Assembly (NCBI GenBank): GCA_017466405.1 | Contig: JAFTUF010000003.1 | Location: 1-51,792, forward strand | Origin: Bacteroidales bacterium | GTDB lineage: Bacteria; Bacteroidota; Bacteroidia; Bacteroidales; F082 | Direction: 5' to 3' | Length of the DNA stretch: 51,792 bases | In this document: positions 5,150-47,835 of the stretch, in pieces | How positions within the stretch are numbered: the first letter of the stretch is position 1 | Layout: each line of letters begins with the position of its first letter | The notes under the pieces: generated by a model | What the model was told of the DNA's origin: nothing | The model's database searches: none | Seen by the model: only the letters and a program-made list of their open reading frames with translations | Position numbers and translations under genes: made by a program

Positions 5150-7780
5150 TTAATCTATTAAAATCTTTTGTACTTTAACATCATTTTCTTCTATCATACG
5201 AACGATGTAAATACCGTTTGAGAAGTTATCCATAGGGATATTAGTAGAACCGTTTACGTTGTATGCTGCTACTGGGCGACCTTGGATGTCGTAGATTTCT
5301 ACAACAGCATTGTCGGAAGTGCTGCTGATGAACAACTCGTTCTTATAGATATAAACGAAGTCGTCATTGTCGGAATTCATTTCTGATTTCGAAGTAAGCT
5401 TAAGAACGAAACGTTCTGGGTTGTCGTTCGACTTTGCCATGAATGTATAGTCTTCGAAGAGCATGTTTGTTTCTTCGCCTGTCAAGCGGTCGACGAGGAT
5501 GACTCTTGCGAAATCGCTATTTTCAGCGTCGATGCTGATTGTGTATTGACCCATTGTCTTTGCTTCGAATGAGAATGGAATTTCTTCAACGTCGTTGCTC
5601 ATTGTTGCTACAGCGTAGTTCTTGCCTTCTACTGGAACGTAAACCATAGGAACCTCAGTGTTGCGGTGGTTGATCTTTGTAAGACCTAAGCCTTCGTTGA
5701 ATGAAACGTAAGCTATATCACTGTATTTTGAGTTAGAGACATTGATAGCTAATGAACCGTTGGATTCTCCTTTTGATCTGCTTTGAGCAGCTTTCTTGTT
5801 AATTGCTAATTGACCTTCTCCTCCAACTTGTATAAGGACGCCTTGGAAAGCTTTGATTGTACCTGTATTATCGTTTGCTACCCATGTACCACCGCCTTCA
5901 AGAACATAGAAACCTTGAGCTAAAGAAGTGTGTCTCAAATGAGCAAATGTGATGTCGTGAGAGAATGGGTTGCCGATAAGGTAGAAACCTGCAAGATCGC
6001 CGGCTTCAGCTGTTGTAGAAACACTCATGGTATGAGATTCTTCTGTGTTCAAACTTACCGTGTATGTTGCTTCTGTTTTAGCAGCAGCATTTGCATAGAG
6101 ATAACCTGTTGTTGGTTGCAACTTAGTACCAAATTCAGCATTAACTTCATTTTCGTTTTTATAATTTATCCATTCTTCTTCAATTTTTGATTCATCATAA
6201 CGATATAAGGCGTATGCAGATTCTGTTGTTATCAAACCAGAATTTGCAATATCTACTGAAGAAGGAACTGCTATGGTGTACCAATCATTTTCTAAATTAT
6301 CATCGCCATTGTTGGTGTAGACTTTTTTAACAACAACGTTATCTACGGCTATTTCATTGTAGATTTGACCTTCGCCTGTTACATCAACGCGAGTGATGTT
6401 GTTTGTACCTACAGCAAGTAAATTAAGAGTAGCGCTTACTTCGACAGCACCTTCAATTTTACCTGTAGTGTTGACTGTAACGACAGGAGCGTCATAGCTT
6501 GCATCTTTATAAGCATCGAATGCAAATGCTTTAGAACCATCATTGTTAGCTTTAATGCTTGTGTTACCTGTTATATTTACGTTACCGCTATTGTTTGAAA
6601 GTACGTATGAATCTCCGTATTTTTCTACCCATTTGTCCAAGTTAGTACCGTCTAATGTCATATCTTCAACAGTGAGGTTAGCATAGTTTTGGATTAACAT
6701 ATAATAATAACCATTATAATCTTCATCAACATTTAAGGTGCCGTTTTTAAGAGTAACCGTATTACCTTTCAAGATTTGGAATCCATTTGATTCAGTTCCT
6801 GTTGAACCTACAGGACCATCTGCGAAGGTATAAGTGAAACCGCCGAAGTCGATAGTAACGTTTTTGTTGATGACAACGCCTGAACCTTCAGCATTTTTAC
6901 GAAGGGTAATTGTTTGACCTGCAGTTGCTGCATCTACTGCTGCAGCGAGAGTTTCATACTTGGTCTCGCCAATTTGGGCTACATACGATTTTGTTAAGAA
7001 ATCAATTTTTATAGGTTCAGCAATAGTTCCTAAAAACTTGTTGGTTTCAAAAGTAATGCTATTAACTTCTAAAAATTCTAACTCTTCTCCATTTTCATGG
7101 TCATATAATTTGAAAGTAACGACATCGTTATCTTTACCTGCTATAGTCATTTGGTTTGCGTAGAATCTTTCTTCATTGATAGTGTATGTGAAATCTGTTT
7201 TACTGCTGCCAACGACCTTGTCGCCTATAAAAGCTCCAAGTTCAAGTTTATCGTTTTTTTGTTCTACACCGTCGATTAAAACTACAGCTGTAAGTGTCAT
7301 GTTGTAATCGTAATCGCCAATCTCAGGTATGAAATGATCTGGAGCTATGAAGTTAACATTGTAAGGAGCACGCAGGGTACCAAAAACATCGGCGTTGAAA
7401 GAGATTGTATTATCAACGAATTCGTTGCCGTCTGCATCCGATAATACATAATTAGAGTGTTCAGTCTTATTGCTATGGTCATAAACTTTTAAAGTATATT
7501 CTTCGCCTGATTTGCCTCTAAAAGTAGTCAGTGCTGTATACTTACCATAACCATAGTCCTTTGTCATTGTTGTTGCACGACATACGCCATTGCAAAACAC
7601 TCCGAGTTCGAGATTGTCTCTGTATTCTTCTACTCCTTCAAATGAAACAGTAGTGGCGATTGTCATAGACTGGTTATAAACAGTTGGATCAACAGAAACT
7701 GGAGTATAATAATTATTCTGTCCGAATGACACTGAACAAAGCAACATTAAGAATGTGATAAATGTTAGTCTTTTTTTCAT
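5150..7780 (-). CDS. Secreted T9SS-cargo protein with two tandem copies of the shared domain
   Basis: 876 residues. A signal peptide covers residues 1-20 (ending SFGQ). Two copies of a domain of about 100 residues follow (35-144 and 159-261), each with an ELG[VA]F core and ending in a GT-x-x-x-P motif. Next is one IGETKYETLAAAVDAA unit (about 269-290) with hydrophobic strands typical of a right-handed beta-helix to about residue 480, then a region resembling the GW module of the giants (WYTIAVPSS and YLIGNPFS). The last 75 residues form a T9SS type A sorting domain (VVEIYDIQGRPVAAY, ending NGIYIVRMIEENDVKVQKILID). It is predicted to be secreted and anchored at the cell surface. It lies 200 bases downstream of the 4200-residue gene and shares modules with it. 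No promoter was found directly upstream. Ligand unknown. Confidence 0.8.
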   Translation of the reverse strand: MKKRLTFITFLMLLCSVSFGQNNYYTPVSVDPTVYNQSMTIATTVSFEGVEEYRDNLELGVFCNGVCRATTMTKDYGYGKYTALTTFRGKSGEEYTLKVYDHSNKTEHSNYVLSDADGNEFVDNTISFNADVFGTLRAPYNVNFIAPDHFIPEIGDYDYNMTLTAVVLIDGVEQKNDKLELGAFIGDKVVGSSKTDFTYTINEERFYANQMTIAGKDNDVVTFKLYDHENGEELEFLEVNSITFETNKFLGTIAEPIKIDFLTKSYVAQIGETKYETLAAAVDAATAGQTITLRKNAEGSGVVINKNVTIDFGGFTYTFADGPVGSTGTESNGFQILKGNTVTLKNGTLNVDEDYNGYYYMLIQNYANLTVEDMTLDGTNLDKWVEKYGDSYVLSNNSGNVNITGNTSIKANNDGSKAFAFDAYKDASYDAPVVTVNTTGKIEGAVEVSATLNLLAVGTNNITRVDVTGEGQIYNEIAVDNVVVKKVYTNNGDDNLENDWYTIAVPSSVDIANSGLITTESAYALYRYDESKIEEEWINYKNENEVNAEFGTKLQPTTGYLYANAAAKTEATYTVSLNTEESHTMSVSTTAEAGDLAGFYLIGNPFSHDITFAHLRHTSLAQGFYVLEGGGTWVANDNTGTIKAFQGVLIQVGGEGQLAINKKAAQSRSKGESNGSLAINVSNSKYSDIAYVSFNEGLGLTKINHRNTEVPMVYVPVEGKNYAVATMSNDVEEIPFSFEAKTMGQYTISIDAENSDFARVILVDRLTGEETNMLFEDYTFMAKSNDNPERFVLKLTSKSEMNSDNDDFVYIYKNELFISSTSDNAVVEIYDIQGRPVAAYNVNGSTNIPMDNFSNGIYIVRMIEENDVKVQKILID

Positions 7781-7884: not shown

Positions 7885-7896
7885 CTGCTCTAAGCA

Positions 7897-7984
7897 ATTA
7901 TGCATTATGCATTATGAATTATGCATTATGAATTATGCATTATGAATTATGCATTATGAATTATGCATTATGAATTATGAATTA
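7897..7984. repeat. Tandem array of 14-base units overlapping the giant gene's stop codon
   Basis: About six copies of GCATTATGAATTAT, with some half units, run without interruption up to and into the stop codon (7982-7984) of the 4200-residue gene. On the coding strand they form its immediate 3-prime untranslated region. The words match the array at 222-254. There are no spacers, so it is not a CRISPR. Confidence 0.9.
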
Positions 7985-10900
7985 CTTCACTACCAATCTG
8001 CAGTTTCTTGAATTGCCATCGATAGTGACTCTAATTACATATATACCTGCTGTTTCAAGAGCATCGATAGAATCGACATTGCTGTATTCGGCAACCTTAA
8101 CACCGAGAGCGTTGAATACTTCAACCTTATCGCATGTTGCTTCAAGATTGATTTCTCTGTCGGTTGTTGTTGGGTTAGGATAGATATTGATGTCGCTCAA
8201 TGTAGCTTCTTCAATATTCAAGATACCTAAGTTGAACATATAAGGTTCGTCGATTGAGCCTAATACTGCGTCGTTGGAGTAGTTGATTCTGTTGTTGAGT
8301 TCATAAACTGTTCCGTAGTTGACATCATAGTATTTGAATGTTAACTCTTGAACGTCTTCTCCATTGATTGTTAGGAATAAGATATATTGGTCTAATTCTT
8401 CAACATATACAGGGCGTGCGCTGCCGCGGCATTCACCGTTAGCGAAAGCTGCAATTTCGTAGTTGTCGTTTACGAGTTCGCCGTCGATGCTCAACATTGC
8501 TACTACAGTCATGTTGTTTGCAAACTTATTAGCATTTGATTTCCAGAATTTATTTTCTGAAACAGCATCCGACTTAGCAGATCTGCTGCTGCCTGCAGAA
8601 TAAACGAATGATGTTGCATTTGCTGATTTGTACATATAGCCTTGTCCTGGAGTCAACTCTGTTAAATCGCCAATCCATTTACCAAGATCTGAATCATAGA
8701 ATGATGTTTTATCTAATGTCTTGATAACATCATCATTAGCTGCTGTGGTGTGATTTGCGAGAGCCTCGTTGATGTCGAGTGTTTCATACAATGGATATGA
8801 GATCCAGTTCCAGCCAGCGCCTAAAGAAATTGTTGTTTCTTCGCGGTCCACGACATTGCCTGAGATTTCTATTGTTACACCTTCAGTTGCAGAAGTGTTA
8901 ATCATGTACATTTGTTTTGTTGAAAGGTTGAAATCGCCTATCCAAGCAGATGTTCCGTTACCGAGGTCTTGGTATGAAGAACTGTTGTTGTTGAATTTAC
9001 CTTTGATTTGTACACCATTAGTTCCGAGAGCGTTTTGTACTTTTTCGAGGCCTGTTTCATCTGAGAGGTCGATGTATGATGAGAACCAGTTCCAGCCGTA
9101 TGCGAGAGCTATCTCTTGAGTGCCTGATGTCATTATTACACTATATGTGCCGTCTTCGTTAGGGACAAATTCGAAGCCTTCAGCTAAGAGAGTTGTATTT
9201 GTACCATTTACTGCAGTTTCTGTGAATGTGCCGCCAGTGATAAGTTCACCAGTAAGTTTTTCTGTATCGTTACAGCCAATCTTTGTGTTAAATGTACCGC
9301 CTGTTACTGAGAACTCAGCATTGTAATGTACATTTGAGTCTGATACATTTCCAACAAATACAGAAGATGCATCTCTGCCGTTAGGAGCAAATTCACCTCC
9401 TGTTATAGATAATTTAGCTGTATTGTCAACAGATTGTACCCATAATTGACCGTCGAATGTACCGCCGTTGATAGTCATATCGCCCTTCCACAAACGTACT
9501 GAACGATAAGCAGGAGTTGATATTGTACCACCATTGATTGTTGATGAACCGCTATATTGGAAGATAGCGCAAATCATGTGAGTAGCGAAAGCTTGTTCAC
9601 CAAGATGTTCAATAGTACCGTTTTCAACTACGAGAGTACCTTCATTACGTACAGTATATGAACCCCAGCCAAAGGTTGGTTCGCCATTGCTTGTGTCTTT
9701 AAAGCTTATCTTACCATTGCCTGTAATAGTAAGGTTACCTTTGTTGCTAATCATCTGATATGATTCTGTACATTCTTTCTCTTGGCTGATTGTATAATCT
9801 GCTAAATCTAATGTAACAACTTTATCAGCTGCAACTGTTATACCTTCTGTAAGAACTATGTCTTTAAGAACTTTGATTTTATCACCATCTTGTGCTGCTT
9901 CGAAAGCTTTTTGCAATGATTCATATTTGTTGCCACCTTCAATTTGAGCTACATAAACTTTATCAACTACTTTGTATTTACCTTCTTCGTAAACAACTTT
10001 CTTATCTTGGTTAAGATTGTAATTGATTGTCAAATCTTCAGTTGTTGTTGCAAGTGTAGCTGCATCTGAAGTGAAGTTGATAGTACCATTATTAGTTAAC
10101 GTACCAGTAATATTAACTGTACCTGCATTGTTCATAGTACCATTAGCTGAAATATTGAAACTTTGTGTTGTTTCGAATGTTGATGCAGCATCAATATTCA
10201 TGATACCGTAACCTTCAAGTTTACTTGCAGCTTGACCGACACCCATACCGTTGTGGTTGTTAACAATAAGTTTTGCTCCGTTTACGAGGCTTATTGTAGC
10301 TGTAGCAGTGCCGTTTTCTGTTTCTGAAGCTGGACGACCTGCGATACCGAAGCCATTCTTAACAGTAAGATTTGCACCTTCATCTAAAGTGATAGTTCCT
10401 CTGTCGATGAGGTAATCAAGTACGATTGTTGAGTTCTTGATAACCAATGTACCGTCGTATTTGTTATCGGTTTCTTTTTCACGGCCTGAAACGTGGATAC
10501 CCAATCCGCTGTTTGCGTTAGCTGAAGCTGAAGTGAGGTTTGCACCGTAGAATGTAAGAGTTGCATCACCTTCACCGCCACGACCTACAAAGAACCAGTC
10601 TTTGCTCCAGTCAACTGTTGCAGTACCTGTGATAGTAACGTTTTTGCCATAGAGAGAAGCGTTCATTGCGATAGCTGGATCGCCTTGTTTCCATAACAAT
10701 TCAATTGTTTCACCGTCTTGAGCTGCGGTTACTGCATCAGCGAGGGATTTATATTTAGTCTCACCTATTTTAGCAACTGGTAACATAAAGTCTTCAGCTT
10801 CGTATGTGTAATTTGTTACACTATATACGTTTTCATTGTCTACCAATGCGCTTGCTGCTGCATCTGAACCTTTAGAGTTATCTACGATAGCTAATTCTAA

Positions 10901-37490: not shown

Positions 37491-38123
37491 ATGAGAAAAT
37501 CTATTTTTACAATCTTTGTTACAGTATCATTACTAGTAACACTATCGAGTATGCACAGTGGATTGTTGTCGAGGAACAAATACGAACCGTGCAGTGAGAA
37601 CCAATACCAGGGCAATATGCTTATGATAGCTCAAGTTATGGAAGGGGACGATGTGCTTCTAAACTGTGAAGTTGCAGTCTTCGACTCTAACGAGGAATGC
37701 CGTGCCTCGGAGATGTCAATACCTAACGACAACGGTTATGTCTATCTCACCATTCAGGGTGAAGGTGAAGGCGAGCCATTACATTTCAGGGTCGTTTATG
37801 AAAGCGGCGACAGCATCAGAGACGTGCTAGCTGATGAAACGGTCGTATTTGTCAATGATGACGTGGTTGGCAGTTTACAGAATCCATTTGTCATCAATAT
37901 TGATAAACCAGTGTCTGTTAATGACATTAAAGCAGACAAAAATGACGTTGACATTCTTTCTACTAACGATGGAATCTTGATTAGAACAATGAAAAGACAG
38001 AGCGTATCTGTATATAATATCATGGGTGTTTGTATGTTTCAACAAGAAGTCGAGGGTGAGTGCGTTGTTAACCTTCCTCAAGGAATATATATCGCCAATG
38101 GCAAAAAAATCATTGTTAAATAA
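37491..38123 (+). CDS. Small secreted protein: one shared domain plus T9SS-type tail
   Basis: 210 residues. A signal peptide covers about 1-24. Residues 42-138 are one copy of the domain shared with the giants (MLMIAQVMEGDD, CEVAVFDSNEECRAS, closing GSLQNPFVINI). Residues about 142-210 resemble a T9SS type A sorting domain (SVYNIMGVCMFQQ, then LPQGIYIANGKKIIVK). It is thus the minimal form of the C-terminal part of the giant proteins. It is first in an operon: the 3227-residue gene starts 28 bases after its stop. Function unknown; surface display by T9SS is inferred. Confidence 0.75.
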   Translation: MRKSIFTIFVTVSLLVTLSSMHSGLLSRNKYEPCSENQYQGNMLMIAQVMEGDDVLLNCEVAVFDSNEECRASEMSIPNDNGYVYLTIQGEGEGEPLHFRVVYESGDSIRDVLADETVVFVNDDVVGSLQNPFVINIDKPVSVNDIKADKNDVDILSTNDGILIRTMKRQSVSVYNIMGVCMFQQEVEGECVVNLPQGIYIANGKKIIVK

Positions 38124-38151: not shown

Positions 38152-41100
38152 ATGAGAATATTTACTAAAAGAATAATGCTGCTATGTATGGCGGTTTTAT
38201 TTATCTTCAATCTGGCGAAAGCCGAAGACTGGGACTGTGTTGTCGTGAATAATAAAATAAGTCCGGAGAAACCATACATAGAACTTGATATGAGATGGTT
38301 TGAATGGTACACGAGTAACTCGTGGATGGACTCTTGGGAGATAACTTTCAGCAATTATAACGACGAGTTTAACTTTACTGAAGGAGAAGACCTTTGCACT
38401 GGAAGCAGCGAATGGGCATCAAGTATTAGGGATGATAATGACACGTATAAAACATACTCATCAACGAATTTCTTTGTTGAACTTTGGAATCCTTATACTG
38501 AATTTGATGACAAATACTGCTATCGTGTCACTATCAGAATTCTTCCTAAATTCCCTATCGATAAAGATACAAAAATCATAGGTACTGTAAGTTGTAAATG
38601 GAGAGACAATCACGACGGTCCATACGACAACAGTTGCGATTTTAGTGCGAGTGTTGATGATAATTCTGTCTTTCAGTCATTGGGAGAAGTGACAAGAGAT
38701 AGTTATAAAGTGAAATATAGTAACACAAATCTGTCAAATATCAGTGGCGTGTATCAAGGATATCAACGTAAGTTGGCTTTGTCCGTCGATGGCAGTACAT
38801 CAAACTACATTATATCTGATGCATCGACATCGTATTCACAGAATGTATCAGTTGCAAGTAATACAAAGACATACGATGTTACTGAAATCATGGCTATAGA
38901 GAATAACAACTATTACCTTGGAGAGAAAACACATACTGTAAGTTTTATTAGTAAAAAAACAACGACACTCAAAGGTAGTACCTATCCAGATAATGTTACG
39001 ACAGAATTCGATAAGTGGAATAAATTTATAAAAGTTAAGTGGACATATACCAGCACCAATCTATCCACTTCAGGTACATGGAAGATAATCAGAAAGAAAG
39101 TAGGAACGACAGAAGAGGTGACGGTTGCCAGCGGTATGAATTTCGGAACTGGCTCATACGTTGATTATGATGCATATTATGATACAAAATATACATATAC
39201 AGTTGTCTTTATGCATACAGGATGGGAAGACGTGGTGTGTTCTGATTTGAGTGCTACTTCTAAAGAGGTTATCATCAAAAAGGATTTCGAGATAGCTTTA
39301 ACTTGTACCAGCGAAGATGATAATATTCTTTTATCATGGAATCATGAGGCGTTGGGCGGCACTGGCAATTATTCGTATAAGGTACTTAGACGTTTAAATA
39401 GTGATACAGAATGGATTAAACTTAAAGAAGAGAATAACCTAAGTTCCAATGTGATGAAATATAGTTACAGAGATGCTGATATAGGTTCCTCATGTGACAT
39501 AAATCATTACAAGATAGAAATGATAGCGTTGAACAACGAGACGTTCTATTCCAATGAGGTAGAAGCTAGGATAACGGGCACTACTTCTGTCACATCATTC
39601 TATGCAACTAAAGGTGATTATGCTGGAAATGTTAAACTTAGCTGGAGCGTGAATCAGGTAGGTGGCGATAAAACTAAATTCAAACTCTATCGTAAATTGT
39701 TAGACTCCGATTCCTCTGGCGACTGGAAAATAATTCACGAAACAGAAGGCGTCGCAAGTGTATATAATTATGACGACGTCACAACTAATACTGGACAATA
39801 TTATAACTATAAACTGACAGTACTGACATCATGCGATGGAGAGTCTGACAGTGGAATGAATTATTATTCTGATGGCTTCAGCTTCGCTACAGGTGTCATA
39901 TCGGGACGCGTTACCTATGGCACAGGAACTGCTGTAGAAGGTGTGAAGGTTTCTTTGGAAAAAGCCGATGAGGATGACAATAGCAACGAACAATTCTATT
40001 CTCTCGATATTAATAAAGTCGGTGGCGTGCTGACTGGTATTGATACAGAAACCGCTAAGACAATTTTTGGTAACAGTTTCTCAGTGCAGTCTTGGGTCAA
40101 TCTTGACGTTGTCTATGACGCTGACAAAAACATTGATGAACCAGTCATCGCTCAAGTGCCTTATATGTTCAGATTTACAGCAAAGAAACAAGACCAAGAC
40201 GTATTTAAATTGAACCTCAGTACTTATAATAACAACACAAATAAATACGAAAATCATCCGACTGATATTGAAATAGCTGCCAATAGTTTCTATCATCTGA
40301 CAATGGCGTATGACCATAACGAGAAAAAAGTCGTTATCACTTCCGTTGATGAAGATAGGACAATGGTTACAGATTCAATAATGATGACTGACGCATTCGA
40401 TGTTGAACAGTCTGTCGTTGACTTGTCTAAAATTGACGAAAGTCTGATAGAGCATTTCAGAGAGTTCGATGGAAAGAATGTAATAGCCTTTGCCGCTTGT
40501 ATGGAAGACTCTACAGCTCATTATTATAAGGGTTATATTGATGAAATCAGGGTATGGAGCAAATTCTTGAGCACGAAAGATATAAACAGGAACTATGATC
40601 ATTTGTTGGCTGGCTCCGAAAAAGACCTCAGGATATATTATCCTATCGACGAAGGCATAAACAATCAAAAGACAGCCTACGATTATTCAAAGACCGATGG
40701 CGTATCGAACTCGCTTCATGGTATTATCGTGACAGGCTCAGGCATTAAGAATTACATATCTCCATTGATGGGATTGCATTCATATACCGATGAAAACGGA
40801 AACTATACTATTCGAGGAATACCTTTCCGTGGAACAGGAACCAACTATAACATCATCCCTACTTTAGGTGTCCACGAATTTTCTCCTAATGCCGATAACC
40901 GTTTCGTATCGTCATCTTCACTTAATTTCAGCGGTGTTAACTTCAGCGACATCTCGAGTTTCCCTGTCAGTGGCGTGGCTTATTACAAGAATACCACATA
41001 TCCAGTGGCAGGTGCTACCTTATATGTCGATGGTGTGATGGCTGTTAAAGATAACAAACCTGTCATAACTAATGCTAACGGAGAGTTCTTGTTAAGCGTT

Positions 41101-44100: not shown

Positions 44101-47100
44101 ATCAATAGTCCCAACCTTGTCGTGAAAGTGGATGGTTATGATTTGAACTATAGAAGTCTTAAAGGTATTAACATCCAAATCAAAGGCGAACACGATAATA
44201 ATTGGACTACATTGAAATCGTACGTCAAGAATCATGATGAGGTCACTCAAGATGTTGAATTTCTCGATAACAGCGAGATAATATATACCAATCCGTTGAC
44301 AAATCTCTCCGATCAGAATTATTTGGTTCGTGCCGTGACAATATGCGAATATGGAGCAGAGACAATAAATAACGAAAGTGAAGAGATTCTGATAACTAAA
44401 GACTTGAAATTACCTGCTCTTATCGCTAATCCTAATCCTGCCGACGGAATACTCAGTGCCGGCGATGAGGTGTCAATACTCTTTAACGAAAATATAAAAA
44501 GCGGTGAGATTACTGAAGTCGATAACATCTTTGTGAAAGGAATCTTGAATGAAAGCGAAGTCGCTCACAATGTTGCTTATGCTGCTCTTAAAGATGCGGA
44601 ACCTGCTAGAACAGAATCTACAATCGACCTTAACTCTCGTTCCTTCTCTGTAGAGATGTGGATGAAATATTCATCAAACGGTACTATCTTCAGACATGGA
44701 ACTTCTGACAATAGTTTTGTGGCAGGTGTCGATAATGATGGATATGTTACTATCACGATAAATGATGCTTCTGTTAAGTCGTTGGTTACAATACCTAAAG
44801 ATAAATGGATGTATCTGTCGTTTGCTGTCAATCAAGAAAATGATTATGCAAGATTGTCGGCTGTATGTGCCTACGACGAATTCGTTCTAGACTTGTTTGT
44901 TGATGAGCAAATTACTCTTTACACAGGAAATGGAACGTTGACTCTGGGAGAGGACTTGAATGCAGCGATACATGAACTCACACTTTGGAACTATGCTCGT
45001 AGCTCCAATGAAGCATTGAGTGAGATTTATACAACTAAGTCGCCTTATACAACAGGACTTATCGGATATTGGAAACTTAACGAAGGTCATGGAACATCGG
45101 GAAAAGATTGTGTAAGAAACCGTCACCTTGTTATCTCTGGAACAAATTCATGGTATCTGGCAAACGAAAACGATGCCCTCGTGCTCGACGATAATAATTA
45201 TGTGACGATGAATGTGGCTCACTGTCCAACAAACAACGATGACAACTATCTCATCGAATTATGGTTTAAAGGCGGTGAAGATAACGGCGCGAAATCTCTC
45301 ATGTCAATGCATAACGACACTGATATTCTCGATATTCGTTTAAATGAAAACGGTAATATTGAAATTGAAACATCTTACGAAACTTATAGCAATACACATG
45401 ATAACTTCCTCGATAACAATTGGCATCATATAGCATTGAATGTCTTGAAAGCAAATAGCGGTTCTGCAATTCTCTATATTGATGGTGAAAATGTCATTCA
45501 GATTTCTGCCGATGAATTTCCAGCCATACAATCAGCTCAATTGATATTTGGTGCAAATTACGATGGTATGTACGGTCAGTTCTTTGGAGGTGCATTCGAT
45601 GAGATAAGATATTGGAAAGGAACTTATACCGCCGACTACATACGTAACAACATGTATTCGAGAGTTTCTGCCGACGAACCAGGACTGATGGCTTATTATC
45701 CGATGGAAGAGATGAGCGTTGATGAATATAACCAGACTGTCTATGAATCTACATTGAGCGACCAGAGCGAAAATGAAGCAGTGGAAAATGCAACGCTCGT
45801 CGTTTATGAAGTGACAACGACAGGTACAACGCAAACTACGACAGAGGTAACGCCTCAATGGACAGAAATGACACCTCCTTTAAAGGTCGCTCCTGTGTAT
45901 GATAATGTCGATATTTCTTTCGTGGCCTCCGAACGTAAATTACTCATCAATATTGATGAAGATAAATATAAGACAGAAGGATGCACTCTGATATTCAGCG
46001 TTTCTGAGATAAGAGACGAGAATGATAATATGATGAGTCCTGTTACATGGTCGGCTTACGTCTCGCAAAATCAGCTGAAGTGGAAAGAGTCGGACATCAA
46101 CATACGTAAACAAAGCGGTGATGAGGAATATTTCTCTGTGAAGATTAGCAACACATCGGGCAATACAGAATATTGGAACATCCAGAATCTCCCTGACTGG
46201 CTCGAAACAGATATAGAATCTGGCGAGTTGGCTCCTCTCTCGGAGGCGACAATAAACTTCACCGTTTCAGCAGCGACACCTATAGGTCGTTATGAATCGG
46301 TCGTGTATCTGACAGGAAATAACGCCATCCAAGAACCTCTGGTGATAAACTTAGTTTGTGAAGGTGAAAGACCAGACTGGAACGTCAACCCTGATGAATT
46401 CCTGTCTTCCATCAACATGATAGCTCAACTTGAAATAGATGGACGTATCAGCGAAGATACAGATGACATCGTGGCGGTGTTTGACGGAAATACATGCATA
46501 GGCGTGGCAAGTCCTACTTATAATGTAAACTATGACGCTTATTATTTAATGATGACTATTTATATCAAGATGAACGATATTATTAAGGGAAATGCTGATG
46601 TTAGATTTAAGGCATACGATGCTTCGACAGGCATGTTGTATCCAACTCTCCAAGTGTCTGACACAATTGATTTTAATACGGGATTCATTGTTGGAAATTT
46701 CAACGATCCTGTCGTTCTGTCTCCTGCCAATGACGTCCAGCAATCTATTAATCTCGCAAATGGATGGTCGTGGATTTCTGTAAATGTCAGACCTAATGAA
46801 GACTCGGTATCGACTATGATGGAAAATATTGCAGAAGATATGTTGTATATCAAGTCGAAGAATGCTTTCGCATATATCAATACCGACAGTCATGAATGGC
46901 ACGGCAACTTGTTAACTATTGACCATTCGGTGATGTATAAGGTTAGGACTACAGATGCTAATGTTCTTGATATTGTTGGTGAGAGAATAGAACCAAGTGA
47001 AGATACAATTACTATTAACATGAGATGGAATTGGATAGGCTATACTCCGAATCAAGTTATGTCGGTCGCTGATGCTCTATCCAATGTAAATCCTGTTAAC

Positions 47101-47835
47101 GGCGACTTGATTAAGAACCGCGACGAGTTCGCTTTATACGACGGTTATGAGTGGTCTGGCTCTCTTACCGCTATGCGTCCTGGTATGGGATATATATATA
47201 GGTCAAATGATACGCAGACTAAAAAATTTACCTATCCTTCTGCTTCAAAGTCGGCTGGTGTCAGAAATGATGTCCCATCTGTGTATTCCTGGGCAAATGA
47301 ATATCAGAATAGCATGAATGTCATAGCCATAGTTAAAGATGGCGATGACATTGTGGAAAACGCTGCTATTGAAGTGTATGCTAATAATGCGCTCAGAGGT
47401 ATTTCAAAACAAAGCATTGTCGATGACAAACACTTCTTGACAATATATGGCGACACTTCTGCCGATAGTCTTTCTATCAATGTTATCATTGATGGTTATA
47501 CTTACGAAATCGGTAATAAACTCGTTTTTGGTGAAGATTTGGTGTTGGGTTCTTTGGAAAATCCATATATCATTCAACTTAACAGCAGTGAGTCTGATTC
47601 CGAAAATGTCGTCAATGTTTATCCTACATTGGTAAGTGATGTTCTCAATATCTCGAGCGATGAACTTATCAATATGGTTACACTCTACGACGTGAACGGC
47701 TTGAAGGTTTACCATAACGAAGACCATTACCATAGTAATCAAATAGATGTGAGATTCCTTACTAATGGAGTTTATATCTTGAAGGTTACGACTGAGAGTG
47801 GTAACGTTGTAATAAAATATGTAGTTAAAGGATAA
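38152..47835 (+). CDS. Giant secreted LamG-domain protein with T9SS sorting domain
   Basis: 3227 residues. Signal peptide about 1-25 (ending NLAKA). N-terminal fibronectin-III-like segments (about 280-580) lead to a carboxypeptidase-regulatory-like fold (ISGRVTYGTGTAVEGVKVSL near 583) and a LamG domain (about 617-837). More regulatory-like folds (870-1042) and a long unassigned central region (about 1390-1850, with LRDPPGSNSYSYWE and FRTRGGQTSCPYE) follow. Then come two further LamG domains (about 2147-2313 and 2343-2526), a strand-rich domain with NLPDWLETD (about 2667-2743), the shared domain (about 2753-2856), two GW units (GWSWISVNV, RWNWIGYTP), a second shared domain (about 3050-3143) and a type A sorting domain (VNVYPTLVSDVLNIS to end). 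LamG folds often bind glycans or proteins, so it is probably a surface adhesin. No catalytic site seen. Confidence 0.85.
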   Translation: MRIFTKRIMLLCMAVLFIFNLAKAEDWDCVVVNNKISPEKPYIELDMRWFEWYTSNSWMDSWEITFSNYNDEFNFTEGEDLCTGSSEWASSIRDDNDTYKTYSSTNFFVELWNPYTEFDDKYCYRVTIRILPKFPIDKDTKIIGTVSCKWRDNHDGPYDNSCDFSASVDDNSVFQSLGEVTRDSYKVKYSNTNLSNISGVYQGYQRKLALSVDGSTSNYIISDASTSYSQNVSVASNTKTYDVTEIMAIENNNYYLGEKTHTVSFISKKTTTLKGSTYPDNVTTEFDKWNKFIKVKWTYTSTNLSTSGTWKIIRKKVGTTEEVTVASGMNFGTGSYVDYDAYYDTKYTYTVVFMHTGWEDVVCSDLSATSKEVIIKKDFEIALTCTSEDDNILLSWNHEALGGTGNYSYKVLRRLNSDTEWIKLKEENNLSSNVMKYSYRDADIGSSCDINHYKIEMIALNNETFYSNEVEARITGTTSVTSFYATKGDYAGNVKLSWSVNQVGGDKTKFKLYRKLLDSDSSGDWKIIHETEGVASVYNYDDVTTNTGQYYNYKLTVLTSCDGESDSGMNYYSDGFSFATGVISGRVTYGTGTAVEGVKVSLEKADEDDNSNEQFYSLDINKVGGVLTGIDTETAKTIFGNSFSVQSWVNLDVVYDADKNIDEPVIAQVPYMFRFTAKKQDQDVFKLNLSTYNNNTNKYENHPTDIEIAANSFYHLTMAYDHNEKKVVITSVDEDRTMVTDSIMMTDAFDVEQSVVDLSKIDESLIEHFREFDGKNVIAFAACMEDSTAHYYKGYIDEIRVWSKFLSTKDINRNYDHLLAGSEKDLRIYYPIDEGINNQKTAYDYSKTDGVSNSLHGIIVTGSGIKNYISPLMGLHSYTDENGNYTIRGIPFRGTGTNYNIIPTLGVHEFSPNADNRFVSSSSLNFSGVNFSDISSFPVSGVAYYKNTTYPVAGATLYVDGVMAVKDNKPVITNANGEFLLSVPIGDHYIEIKRDAHTFENGGRYPEDSENIGTKFTFDREVKDLTFYDNTTVMFAGRVSGGKIEQAKPLGCGVSKANIGQAKITFSTPYKMNVIKDTESAGAVRYITNPDTLYYVSDSARYVNSRAFAGNTDETVRSITILTDPVTGEFAVELPPVEYNVDSARILTNSEILFPELPTFIKASNELLDYCDTASVKVVYYEYDTTYNTTYIDGVPVVDTVVTQEMETYYDERRFNYNASLFLTHRSEPVFEVTEHENGIFGIDTAYCVGADGTKTPVVVYSIDSINNTVTYNYGHPIYESYGSYIYDILAYEEYVNYDGEEAQINRVPLSGTRVKIENEFAAGNTISTQGSTDGQIVELAENEIELDSLGKAVYGFMGGAPNIIEPYTLNLNMSYEVNGRHYDWDKNGEFKAIILGSLPTGNNFVTSGPEQVQMILRDPPGSNSYSYWETGTTHTNTTQLGGHYVGGTYIKFDIGNGLGKTTAAGAPGFYIVSSFKYVHEHVPGVDLKVDLDAHNRFTTSWTTTERVSTSSDVNFVGAEGDVFIGSSTNIIFGDAREVGFHHDKNTNEIVLNMEDCTTVGEEFTTGFKYTKYYIESTLIPNTIKLRNELLLPKGTTNLTPKNDTIYYISNLETTNVNYGASNKDASVWGSEANVETMVEGNYTRIKGKSYDILYDHNYYASMDDESAVILLPQDQVNFYNQSVYNWKNILRENERAKINAIDFSIAKNVSVDGGAVYESSYTVDTIDNVIGNFDFTIDLFVDHDFGIYAGTAHSLKIQHGISFGGGGDFSMDNSDENVDTKGYVIHDGNYTDALSVDIHEDNFGAIFRTRGGQTSCPYEDAIVSEYEQPGTILSEATMRVEMPGIKIVDNNIQNNVPSGSAAIFNVELRNESETDTDMWYSLRLVDESNPYGAVVAMDGLAITAVDRPIMIPANSVMNKQITIKQSDESITDYEDIKIVLSSECQNDPTSVYGAIADTLRLSAHFVPSCSPIEIHIDNRVLNINSPNLVVKVDGYDLNYRSLKGINIQIKGEHDNNWTTLKSYVKNHDEVTQDVEFLDNSEIIYTNPLTNLSDQNYLVRAVTICEYGAETINNESEEILITKDLKLPALIANPNPADGILSAGDEVSILFNENIKSGEITEVDNIFVKGILNESEVAHNVAYAALKDAEPARTESTIDLNSRSFSVEMWMKYSSNGTIFRHGTSDNSFVAGVDNDGYVTITINDASVKSLVTIPKDKWMYLSFAVNQENDYARLSAVCAYDEFVLDLFVDEQITLYTGNGTLTLGEDLNAAIHELTLWNYARSSNEALSEIYTTKSPYTTGLIGYWKLNEGHGTSGKDCVRNRHLVISGTNSWYLANENDALVLDDNNYVTMNVAHCPTNNDDNYLIELWFKGGEDNGAKSLMSMHNDTDILDIRLNENGNIEIETSYETYSNTHDNFLDNNWHHIALNVLKANSGSAILYIDGENVIQISADEFPAIQSAQLIFGANYDGMYGQFFGGAFDEIRYWKGTYTADYIRNNMYSRVSADEPGLMAYYPMEEMSVDEYNQTVYESTLSDQSENEAVENATLVVYEVTTTGTTQTTTEVTPQWTEMTPPLKVAPVYDNVDISFVASERKLLINIDEDKYKTEGCTLIFSVSEIRDENDNMMSPVTWSAYVSQNQLKWKESDINIRKQSGDEEYFSVKISNTSGNTEYWNIQNLPDWLETDIESGELAPLSEATINFTVSAATPIGRYESVVYLTGNNAIQEPLVINLVCEGERPDWNVNPDEFLSSINMIAQLEIDGRISEDTDDIVAVFDGNTCIGVASPTYNVNYDAYYLMMTIYIKMNDIIKGNADVRFKAYDASTGMLYPTLQVSDTIDFNTGFIVGNFNDPVVLSPANDVQQSINLANGWSWISVNVRPNEDSVSTMMENIAEDMLYIKSKNAFAYINTDSHEWHGNLLTIDHSVMYKVRTTDANVLDIVGERIEPSEDTITINMRWNWIGYTPNQVMSVADALSNVNPVNGDLIKNRDEFALYDGYEWSGSLTAMRPGMGYIYRSNDTQTKKFTYPSASKSAGVRNDVPSVYSWANEYQNSMNVIAIVKDGDDIVENAAIEVYANNALRGISKQSIVDDKHFLTIYGDTSADSLSINVIIDGYTYEIGNKLVFGEDLVLGSLENPYIIQLNSSESDSENVVNVYPTLVSDVLNISSDELINMVTLYDVNGLKVYHNEDHYHSNQIDVRFLTNGVYILKVTTESGNVVIKYVVKG

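Follow-up and report, generated by a model that had tools for sequence, protein, structure and literature searches.

The stretch of DNA analysed here (the window, 51,792 nucleotides) is a whole contig (G000:C37) of a Bacteroidales genome of 2.43 Mb in 69 contigs; rumen and gut MAGs make up many of the nearest named relatives among the matches listed. The window encodes four proteins, P1 to P4, which carry between them six copies of a domain of about 105 residues that we label D, and all four open reading frames are present where a preliminary description of this DNA had placed them. The proteins fall into two pairs, P2/P1 and P3/P4, each made up of a giant secreted protein and a smaller neighbour; signal peptides were assigned by eye rather than by a program.

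The first pair lies on the reverse strand. The giant P2 (7982-20584, 4200 residues) consists of right-handed beta-helix repeats, two segments of a module that we call GWNW (8576-8947), a single D (8225-8545) and a type A sorting tail of the type IX secretion system (T9SS) at 7985-8185, which scores 29.3 bits with TIGR04183 and 18.8 bits with Por_Secre_tail (cut-off 27). Downstream of it, its partner P1 (5150-7780, 876 residues) comprises a signal-like segment, two copies of D (7346-7699 and 6995-7330), a middle part that looks beta-helix-like by eye and a type A tail (5156-5341; TIGR04183 E 1.2e-9, Por_Secre_tail E 2.8e-7), so that both D copies are N-terminal, directly behind the signal-like segment and distant from the protein's own tail. 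This is a standard pair in the usual gene order, with an intergenic gap of 201 bp that contains no terminator-like site. A 7/14-bp tandem repeat (ATTATGAATTATGC, 6.3 copies, 97% matches) lies in this gap at 7896-7984.

The second pair lies on the forward strand. P3 (37491-38123, 210 residues) has a signal-like segment, one D (37584-37904) and a short C-terminal tail (37917-38093); it is partner-like and is encoded upstream of P4, at a distance of 28 bp. The giant P4 (38152-47835, 3227 residues) starts with a signal-like segment and continues with FN3-like regions (assigned by eye) and LamG (Laminin_G_3, the best of three Pfam matches at 45193-45642), followed by a first copy of D (D1, 46378-46728), two GWNW segments (46753-47256), a second copy (D2, 47281-47583) and a type A tail (47620-47829; Por_Secre_tail E 4.7e-8, TIGR04183 E 3.9e-7). 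The 28-bp gap contains no terminator-like site; one terminator-like pattern was found at 38178-38195, inside the start of P4.

GWNW is a duplicated 'GWNW...GSL...PG.GY' module, recognised by eye and without a Pfam match in either P2 or P4. In P2 it precedes D; in P4 and related Bacteroidales giants, as read in their loci, it separates D1 from D2. The module was also seen in L185, L191 and other loci. In L185 (239-4476 of G000:C59), a frame of 798 residues ends right after this module, with neither a D nor a sorting tail, and a protein of about 615 residues with an N-terminal D starts within a few bases after it.

With TIGR04183, whose cut-off is 23 bits, P1, P2 and P4 score 37.9, 29.3 and 30.0 bits, as expected of type A cargo, and the genome has one SprA (TIGR04189) match over the cut-off, so that the T9SS is present. 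The tail of P3 reaches 14.5 bits with TIGR04183 and 17.2-18.2 bits with DUF6383 (cut-off 23.7). Hence, the placement of D just before a T9SS sorting domain, as proposed in the preliminary description, is firm for P2 and P4 but weak for P3, the tail matches of which are sub-threshold; similarly, P3 does consist of one D and a short tail, but the identification of that tail as a sorting domain is less secure than had been supposed.

Domain D and its relation to known families

The six segments align over their full length, with invariant G, T, G and P columns in the first alignment. When each copy was searched with a profile built from the other five, the E-values were 8.5e-12 and 2.9e-14 for the first and second copies of P1, 6.9e-23 for P2, 7.8e-14 for P3, and 7.8e-10 and 1.2e-11 for the two copies of P4, against 0.29 to 4.6 for the top shuffled decoy in the respective runs. 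The sixfold recurrence that had been noticed by eye is thus confirmed, with copy boundaries that agree within about 10 residues, and the profile search found no seventh copy in the window at E < 0.1. The genome as a whole contains 16 copies, 10 of them beyond the window.

For a wider set, we combined the window with 77 loci from named genomes, taken from the best 80 matches of the scan. This set holds 239 copies in 147 frames; 228 were kept after those that scored under 55 bits or matched an insufficient part of the profile had been dropped, and 141 rows, out of 175 non-redundant ones, went into profile A4. The consensus reads Y..NMT.........G.E......E..AF....ECRG......Y...FLT.YG.......F.LYD.........F..N...G....P, and its most conserved positions are G98 (227 of the 228 copies), F33 (221), R39 (219) and G40 (218), the cysteine of the ECRG turn (Cys38) being retained in 191 copies. 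A second cysteine, in column 34 (AFC...ECRG), goes with a cysteine later in the domain (Fisher p 7e-5, uncorrected for kinship); it is found in 21 of 38 N-terminal and 7 of 96 C-terminal copies and in 57 of the 94 others, counts that are likewise uncorrected for kinship.

The preliminary description recognised no named family, and this is borne out by the searches of Pfam-A and NCBIfam with whole P1-P4, which gave no match over the cut-off in the D segments, and by those of the PDB, where the deeper D profiles reached E-values of 0.53 and 0.38 at best. Single D rows fared similarly against Pfam: from six rows, one family was hit by one row (E 0.066), and 43 rows collected stray matches to 23 families, each of them confined to one or two rows (best E 0.0046). 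An early PDB match to Tako8, obtained with profile A1, had a whole-chain E of 2.5e-6 without any single stretch that passed, and vanished with the deeper profiles. Two other candidates were rejected, namely, that D is a disguised T9SS sorting tail (hhalign probability 0.1%) and that it is linked to phages (tblastn identified no relative among 13 pattern matches in viral contigs). No description of D was found in the open-access journal literature searched. D is a real domain for which we found no family in Pfam-A, NCBIfam (searched with whole P1-P4) or the PDB.

Adjacent giant and partner genes

D was expected to be confined to C-terminal positions, which is not the case: although 96 of the 228 copies (P3 included) are C-terminal, 38 begin no later than residue 75 of the frame and the remaining 94 are located elsewhere. 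All 95 proteins with a C-terminal D (C-type proteins, P3 not included) end in a type A tail (TIGR04183, E <= 0.01). The corresponding figures for proteins with an N-terminal D are 34 of 45 for type A and three of 45 for type B (E <= 0.01), where the 45 include eight that are also C-type; they were drawn from 74 rows after setting aside four loci, the frames open at the 3' end and the tail-less frames, with P1 added.

These two architectures tend to be encoded side by side. The recurring pair consists of a giant secreted protein with D before its T9SS tail and an adjoining, usually smaller protein with D near the N-terminus. In a sample of 149 genomes of the order Bacteroidales, 17 contain D at E <= 1e-6, and a giant followed by a partner was found in 14 of the 16 that remain when the window's genome is set aside (G006, G010, G017, G035, G047, G056, G060, G082, G085, G096, G111, G118, G128 and G131; hand count, from the places of the matches and the frames read). 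The two without a pair are G078, where no D-bearing gene was seen next to the giant in the stretches read, and G003, whose sole D match is a single protein, cut by the contig end (L017, G003:C43), which also has InlB-type repeats and, after D, a Dockerin_1 domain (E 5.4e-13). In the sample of 395 genomes of the phylum, 12 contain D and eight of the 11 other than the window's have the pair (hand count): in G213, G374, G437, G484 and G566 the frames were read, for G260 and G525 the call is based on the partner frame and the match spacing, and for G362 on spacing alone. The pair was not seen in G331, G361 and G421, the first two of which, like G078, have giants without a D partner. Ten genomes of chosen loci were searched whole, and seven of these contain the pair (G599, G600, G601 and G605-G608); G602, G603 and G604 have giants without it, the giant of G602 being at a contig end. 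In several genomes, among them G601, G605 and G606, D was matched in the members of a single pair and nowhere else; Flavobacterium foetidum (G601), for instance, has just two at E <= 1e-6, one in each pair member.

Counted by frame, a C-type frame immediately precedes 35 of the 42 frames with an N-terminal D, a proportion inflated by the fetching of loci by their D match, so that the per-genome counts are fairer. Conversely, a next gene is present for 86 of 92 C-type frames; it is co-directional in 77 cases, and in 55 it carries a D of some kind, which is N-terminal in 34, where the loci are related, the events are not independent and the gaps are those between stop-to-stop frames. The body of the partner varies between genomes, and in L119, L150 and G484 the partner is nearly giant-sized.

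At the other extreme, five partners (in G006, G060, G260, G374 and G111), 140-155 residues in length, end 0-3 residues after D, without a T9SS tail and without any Pfam family match at E <= 0.01. In each of them, a cysteine was seen by eye where the hydrophobic N-terminal segment ends, followed by mostly charged residues: C-KDDDKS in G006, C-QKEEVY in G060, C-KKESG in G260, C-KKNSH in G374 and C-NSDDDD in G111. Only two or three of these partners have a canonical lipobox; a simple lipobox pattern matches three of the 74 N-terminal-D rows, all three being near-bare partners (G060, G374 and G111). PMC5080379 reports C-X-K-(D/E)2-X as the best lipoprotein export signal of Capnocytophaga and SDDDD as the proposed export consensus of Bacteroides fragilis. 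Charges resembling such a signal are clear in the partners of G060, G006 and G111; C-QKEE of G060 fits the former motif exactly, and the other two are close. By these features, the lipoprotein-like partners would sit on the cell surface.

Kinship of the pairs and unpaired copies

When P4 without its D part was used as a BLAST query, related giants were retrieved from Bacteroidales, Flavobacterium, Ignavibacteriae, Neomarinimicrobiota, Latescibacterota, Krumholzibacteriota and Cloacimonadota; the distant relatives match in pieces, some of which may be carried by shared LamG, and the list of phyla is provisional because MAG records may be mis-binned. These giants share a common plan of D1, about 200 residues, D2 and a T9SS tail, and in the tree the D1 copies from six named phyla, with that of P4 among them, fall into a single clade (support 95/93, with a bootstrap that had not settled). 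Beyond Bacteroidota, the pair itself was seen in Neomarinimicrobiota (L119, L134 and L140) and Cloacimonadota (L150), and not in the loci from Latescibacterota (L114) and Ignavibacteriae (L142 and L145); the Krumholzibacteriota locus (L129) ends too soon to show a partner.

Within the order sample, relatives of the P4 core occur in 14 other genomes of the 149, all of them D-bearing, and the partner is next downstream in 13 of the 14, G078 being the exception. Among 60 genomes of the genus, the core is present in two, the window's own included. Given this patchiness, the window's genome may have received P4 by transfer, or else it may have retained P4 while other genomes lost the core.

Recent tandem duplication was considered as a source of the pairs. 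For 11 downstream partners outside the window's genome (four lipoprotein-like ones were left out), the nearest D in the tree was in no case that of the partner's own giant: for ten it belonged to another partner, twice of the same MAG, and for that of L111 to the giant of another genome. Hence, the pairs are old rather than recent tandem copies, with the possible exception of P3.

Indeed, P3 breaks the rule of the pair in both gene order, which is the reverse of the usual one, and kinship, as its D falls into one group with the D2 copies of P4, L139, L130 and L141 (support 95/90). No complete stand-alone counterpart of P3 was seen among the 60 genomes of the genus; some of the small frames were checked, and four of them are cut by contig ends. 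P3 is best read as the detached C-terminus of a giant (D2 and the tail) that has acquired a signal peptide, and it perhaps acts as a substitute partner.

Not every D has a D-bearing neighbour. The 16 copies of the window's genome are distributed over 13 frames, eight of which form four pairs (P2/P1, P3/P4, one in contig C4 of 1656 and 621 residues, and one in C28 of 2455 and 752 residues); the other five (C47, C55, two in C43, and C59) lack a D-bearing neighbour within the stretch read.

A putative docking module and its alternatives

The presence of D on adjoining giant and partner genes suggests that the two proteins dock on the cell surface. In the envisaged scheme, the giant is T9SS cargo with one or two copies of D beside its sorting tail, and the partner, with D near its N-terminus, would be held on the surface by an anchor of its own, mostly a T9SS tail, sometimes a lipoprotein-like one. 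Binding of the partner's D to that of the giant would yield one tethered surface complex, which would display the variable outer parts, such as LamG, FN3-like, beta-helix or InlB repeats. What remains constant from pair to pair is a D on the giant, a D on the neighbour and an anchor on the neighbour, with the rest varying. A nearly bare D on a lipid anchor speaks for D as a joint, since it would have nothing to hold at a distance. Docking is also favoured by the recurrence of the pair from genome to genome and beside the P4 core, by the lone pair of F. foetidum, by the varying body of the partner and by the kinship of the partners' D copies, the nearest of which lie outside their own giants. 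Thus, D is tentatively considered here as a putative docking module that tethers a giant to an anchored partner, a reading that we prefer while granting it somewhat less than an even chance. The earlier hint of a role in display or anchoring comes close to this, the D-D binding and the adhesive role being putative. The broader version, according to which Bacteroidota and some neighbouring phyla share an old two-gene surface system where a homotypic D-D joint would tether LamG/beta-helix giants and the anchor (a T9SS tail or a lipid) would be interchangeable, is more doubtful still. Against docking stand the unpaired copies of D, which are common, the giants of G078, G361 and G331 that lack a D partner, the tandem rows of D, as in a stalk, and the phyla in which no pair was seen, as well as the partners of nearly giant size, the lipoboxes that depart from the canonical form and the deviation of P3 from the rule.

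In the strongest alternative, T9SS giants would use D simply as an Ig-like stalk or spacer, without specific binding, and neighbouring genes would share it through the clustering of surface-protein genes and the exchange of modules between them. A genome of Cloacimonadota (G600, L150) has 85 D matches, some of which, in contig C138, form an even tandem row with steps of about 339 bp within a frame of 2733 residues, many of the matches being partial, and there are 47 matches in G170 and 40 in G178. The passenger domains are varied, five of the 13 D frames of the window's genome are unpaired, and a few stray, sub-threshold Ig-like Pfam matches fall at or near D. Against a spacer stand the nearly bare D of the lipoprotein-like partners, the several genomes in which D is matched in one pair alone, and the D copies of partners, whose nearest kin lie outside their own giants. 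We regard the stalk explanation as rather unlikely, although it comes closest to the docking module.

Less probable again, but deserving consideration, is binding of glycans: a CBM-like D would fix both proteins to the same polysaccharide, such as the LPS of the cell itself or glycans of plants or mucus. Its co-occurrence with LamG and beta-helix regions, the many copies in the gut genus of the window and the dockerin of G003 would fit such a function. However, neither Pfam nor the PDB yielded a match to a carbohydrate-binding family, and the highest conservation is at F33, the ECRG turn and G98 rather than, in our reading, at exposed aromatic residues.

A role of D within the export machinery of the T9SS, where it would sit beside the tail and assist in sorting or give protection, is improbable: the type A tails of all 95 C-type proteins and the presence of SprA in every D-bearing genome (17/17 against a base of 140/149 in the order, 12/12 against 303/395 in the phylum, the window's genome being counted in both) would agree with it, but D is absent from most SprA-bearing genomes, is often N-terminal, occurs on tail-less lipoprotein-like partners and is unrelated to the tail profile. 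The co-occurrence with SprA is consistent with a tie of D to the T9SS and says little, as it would arise by chance with a probability of about 0.04 in the phylum sample and about 0.3 in the order sample. The tie proposed in the preliminary description holds in that most D proteins are T9SS cargo, but not as a rule without exceptions, some partners being lipoprotein-like and one D protein carrying a dockerin.

T9SS giants rank among the largest bacterial surface proteins, and many of them, to our knowledge, have no assigned job. An uncatalogued domain shared by such a giant and its genetic neighbour offers a testable handle on which neighbour holds which giant, and by which joint. The near-bare partners are small enough for expression and binding tests, and a family model of D would label hundreds of proteins, as the scan contained at least 418 relatives.

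How, then, does this arrangement compare with known systems? The five near-bare partners resemble the Bacteroidota surface lipoproteins with an export signal, as described in PMC5080379, in their cysteine and the mostly charged residues after it, but differ from them in that the body is nearly only D, without a Pfam family. With the type A cargo of the T9SS (TIGR04183/PF18962), P1, P2, P4 and all 95 sampled C-type proteins share the tail, whereas D itself is distinct from the tail, to which a profile comparison shows no relationship, and is found also in N-terminal positions and on tail-less proteins. The Ig-like stalk domains, such as BACON, PKD, Big and FN3, are similar to D in size, in repetition and in their occurrence in multidomain secreted proteins; D differs in having no match over the cut-off to any of them, in its recurring gene pair and in its near-bare, lipoprotein-like forms. 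A further analogy is that of cohesin and dockerin: a small module distributed over a large, scaffold-like protein and the product of the adjoining gene would act in a comparable manner. Unlike that system, no cohesin or dockerin match falls within D in the Pfam scans of D rows, and one and the same domain, the binding of which is putative, is present on both sides.
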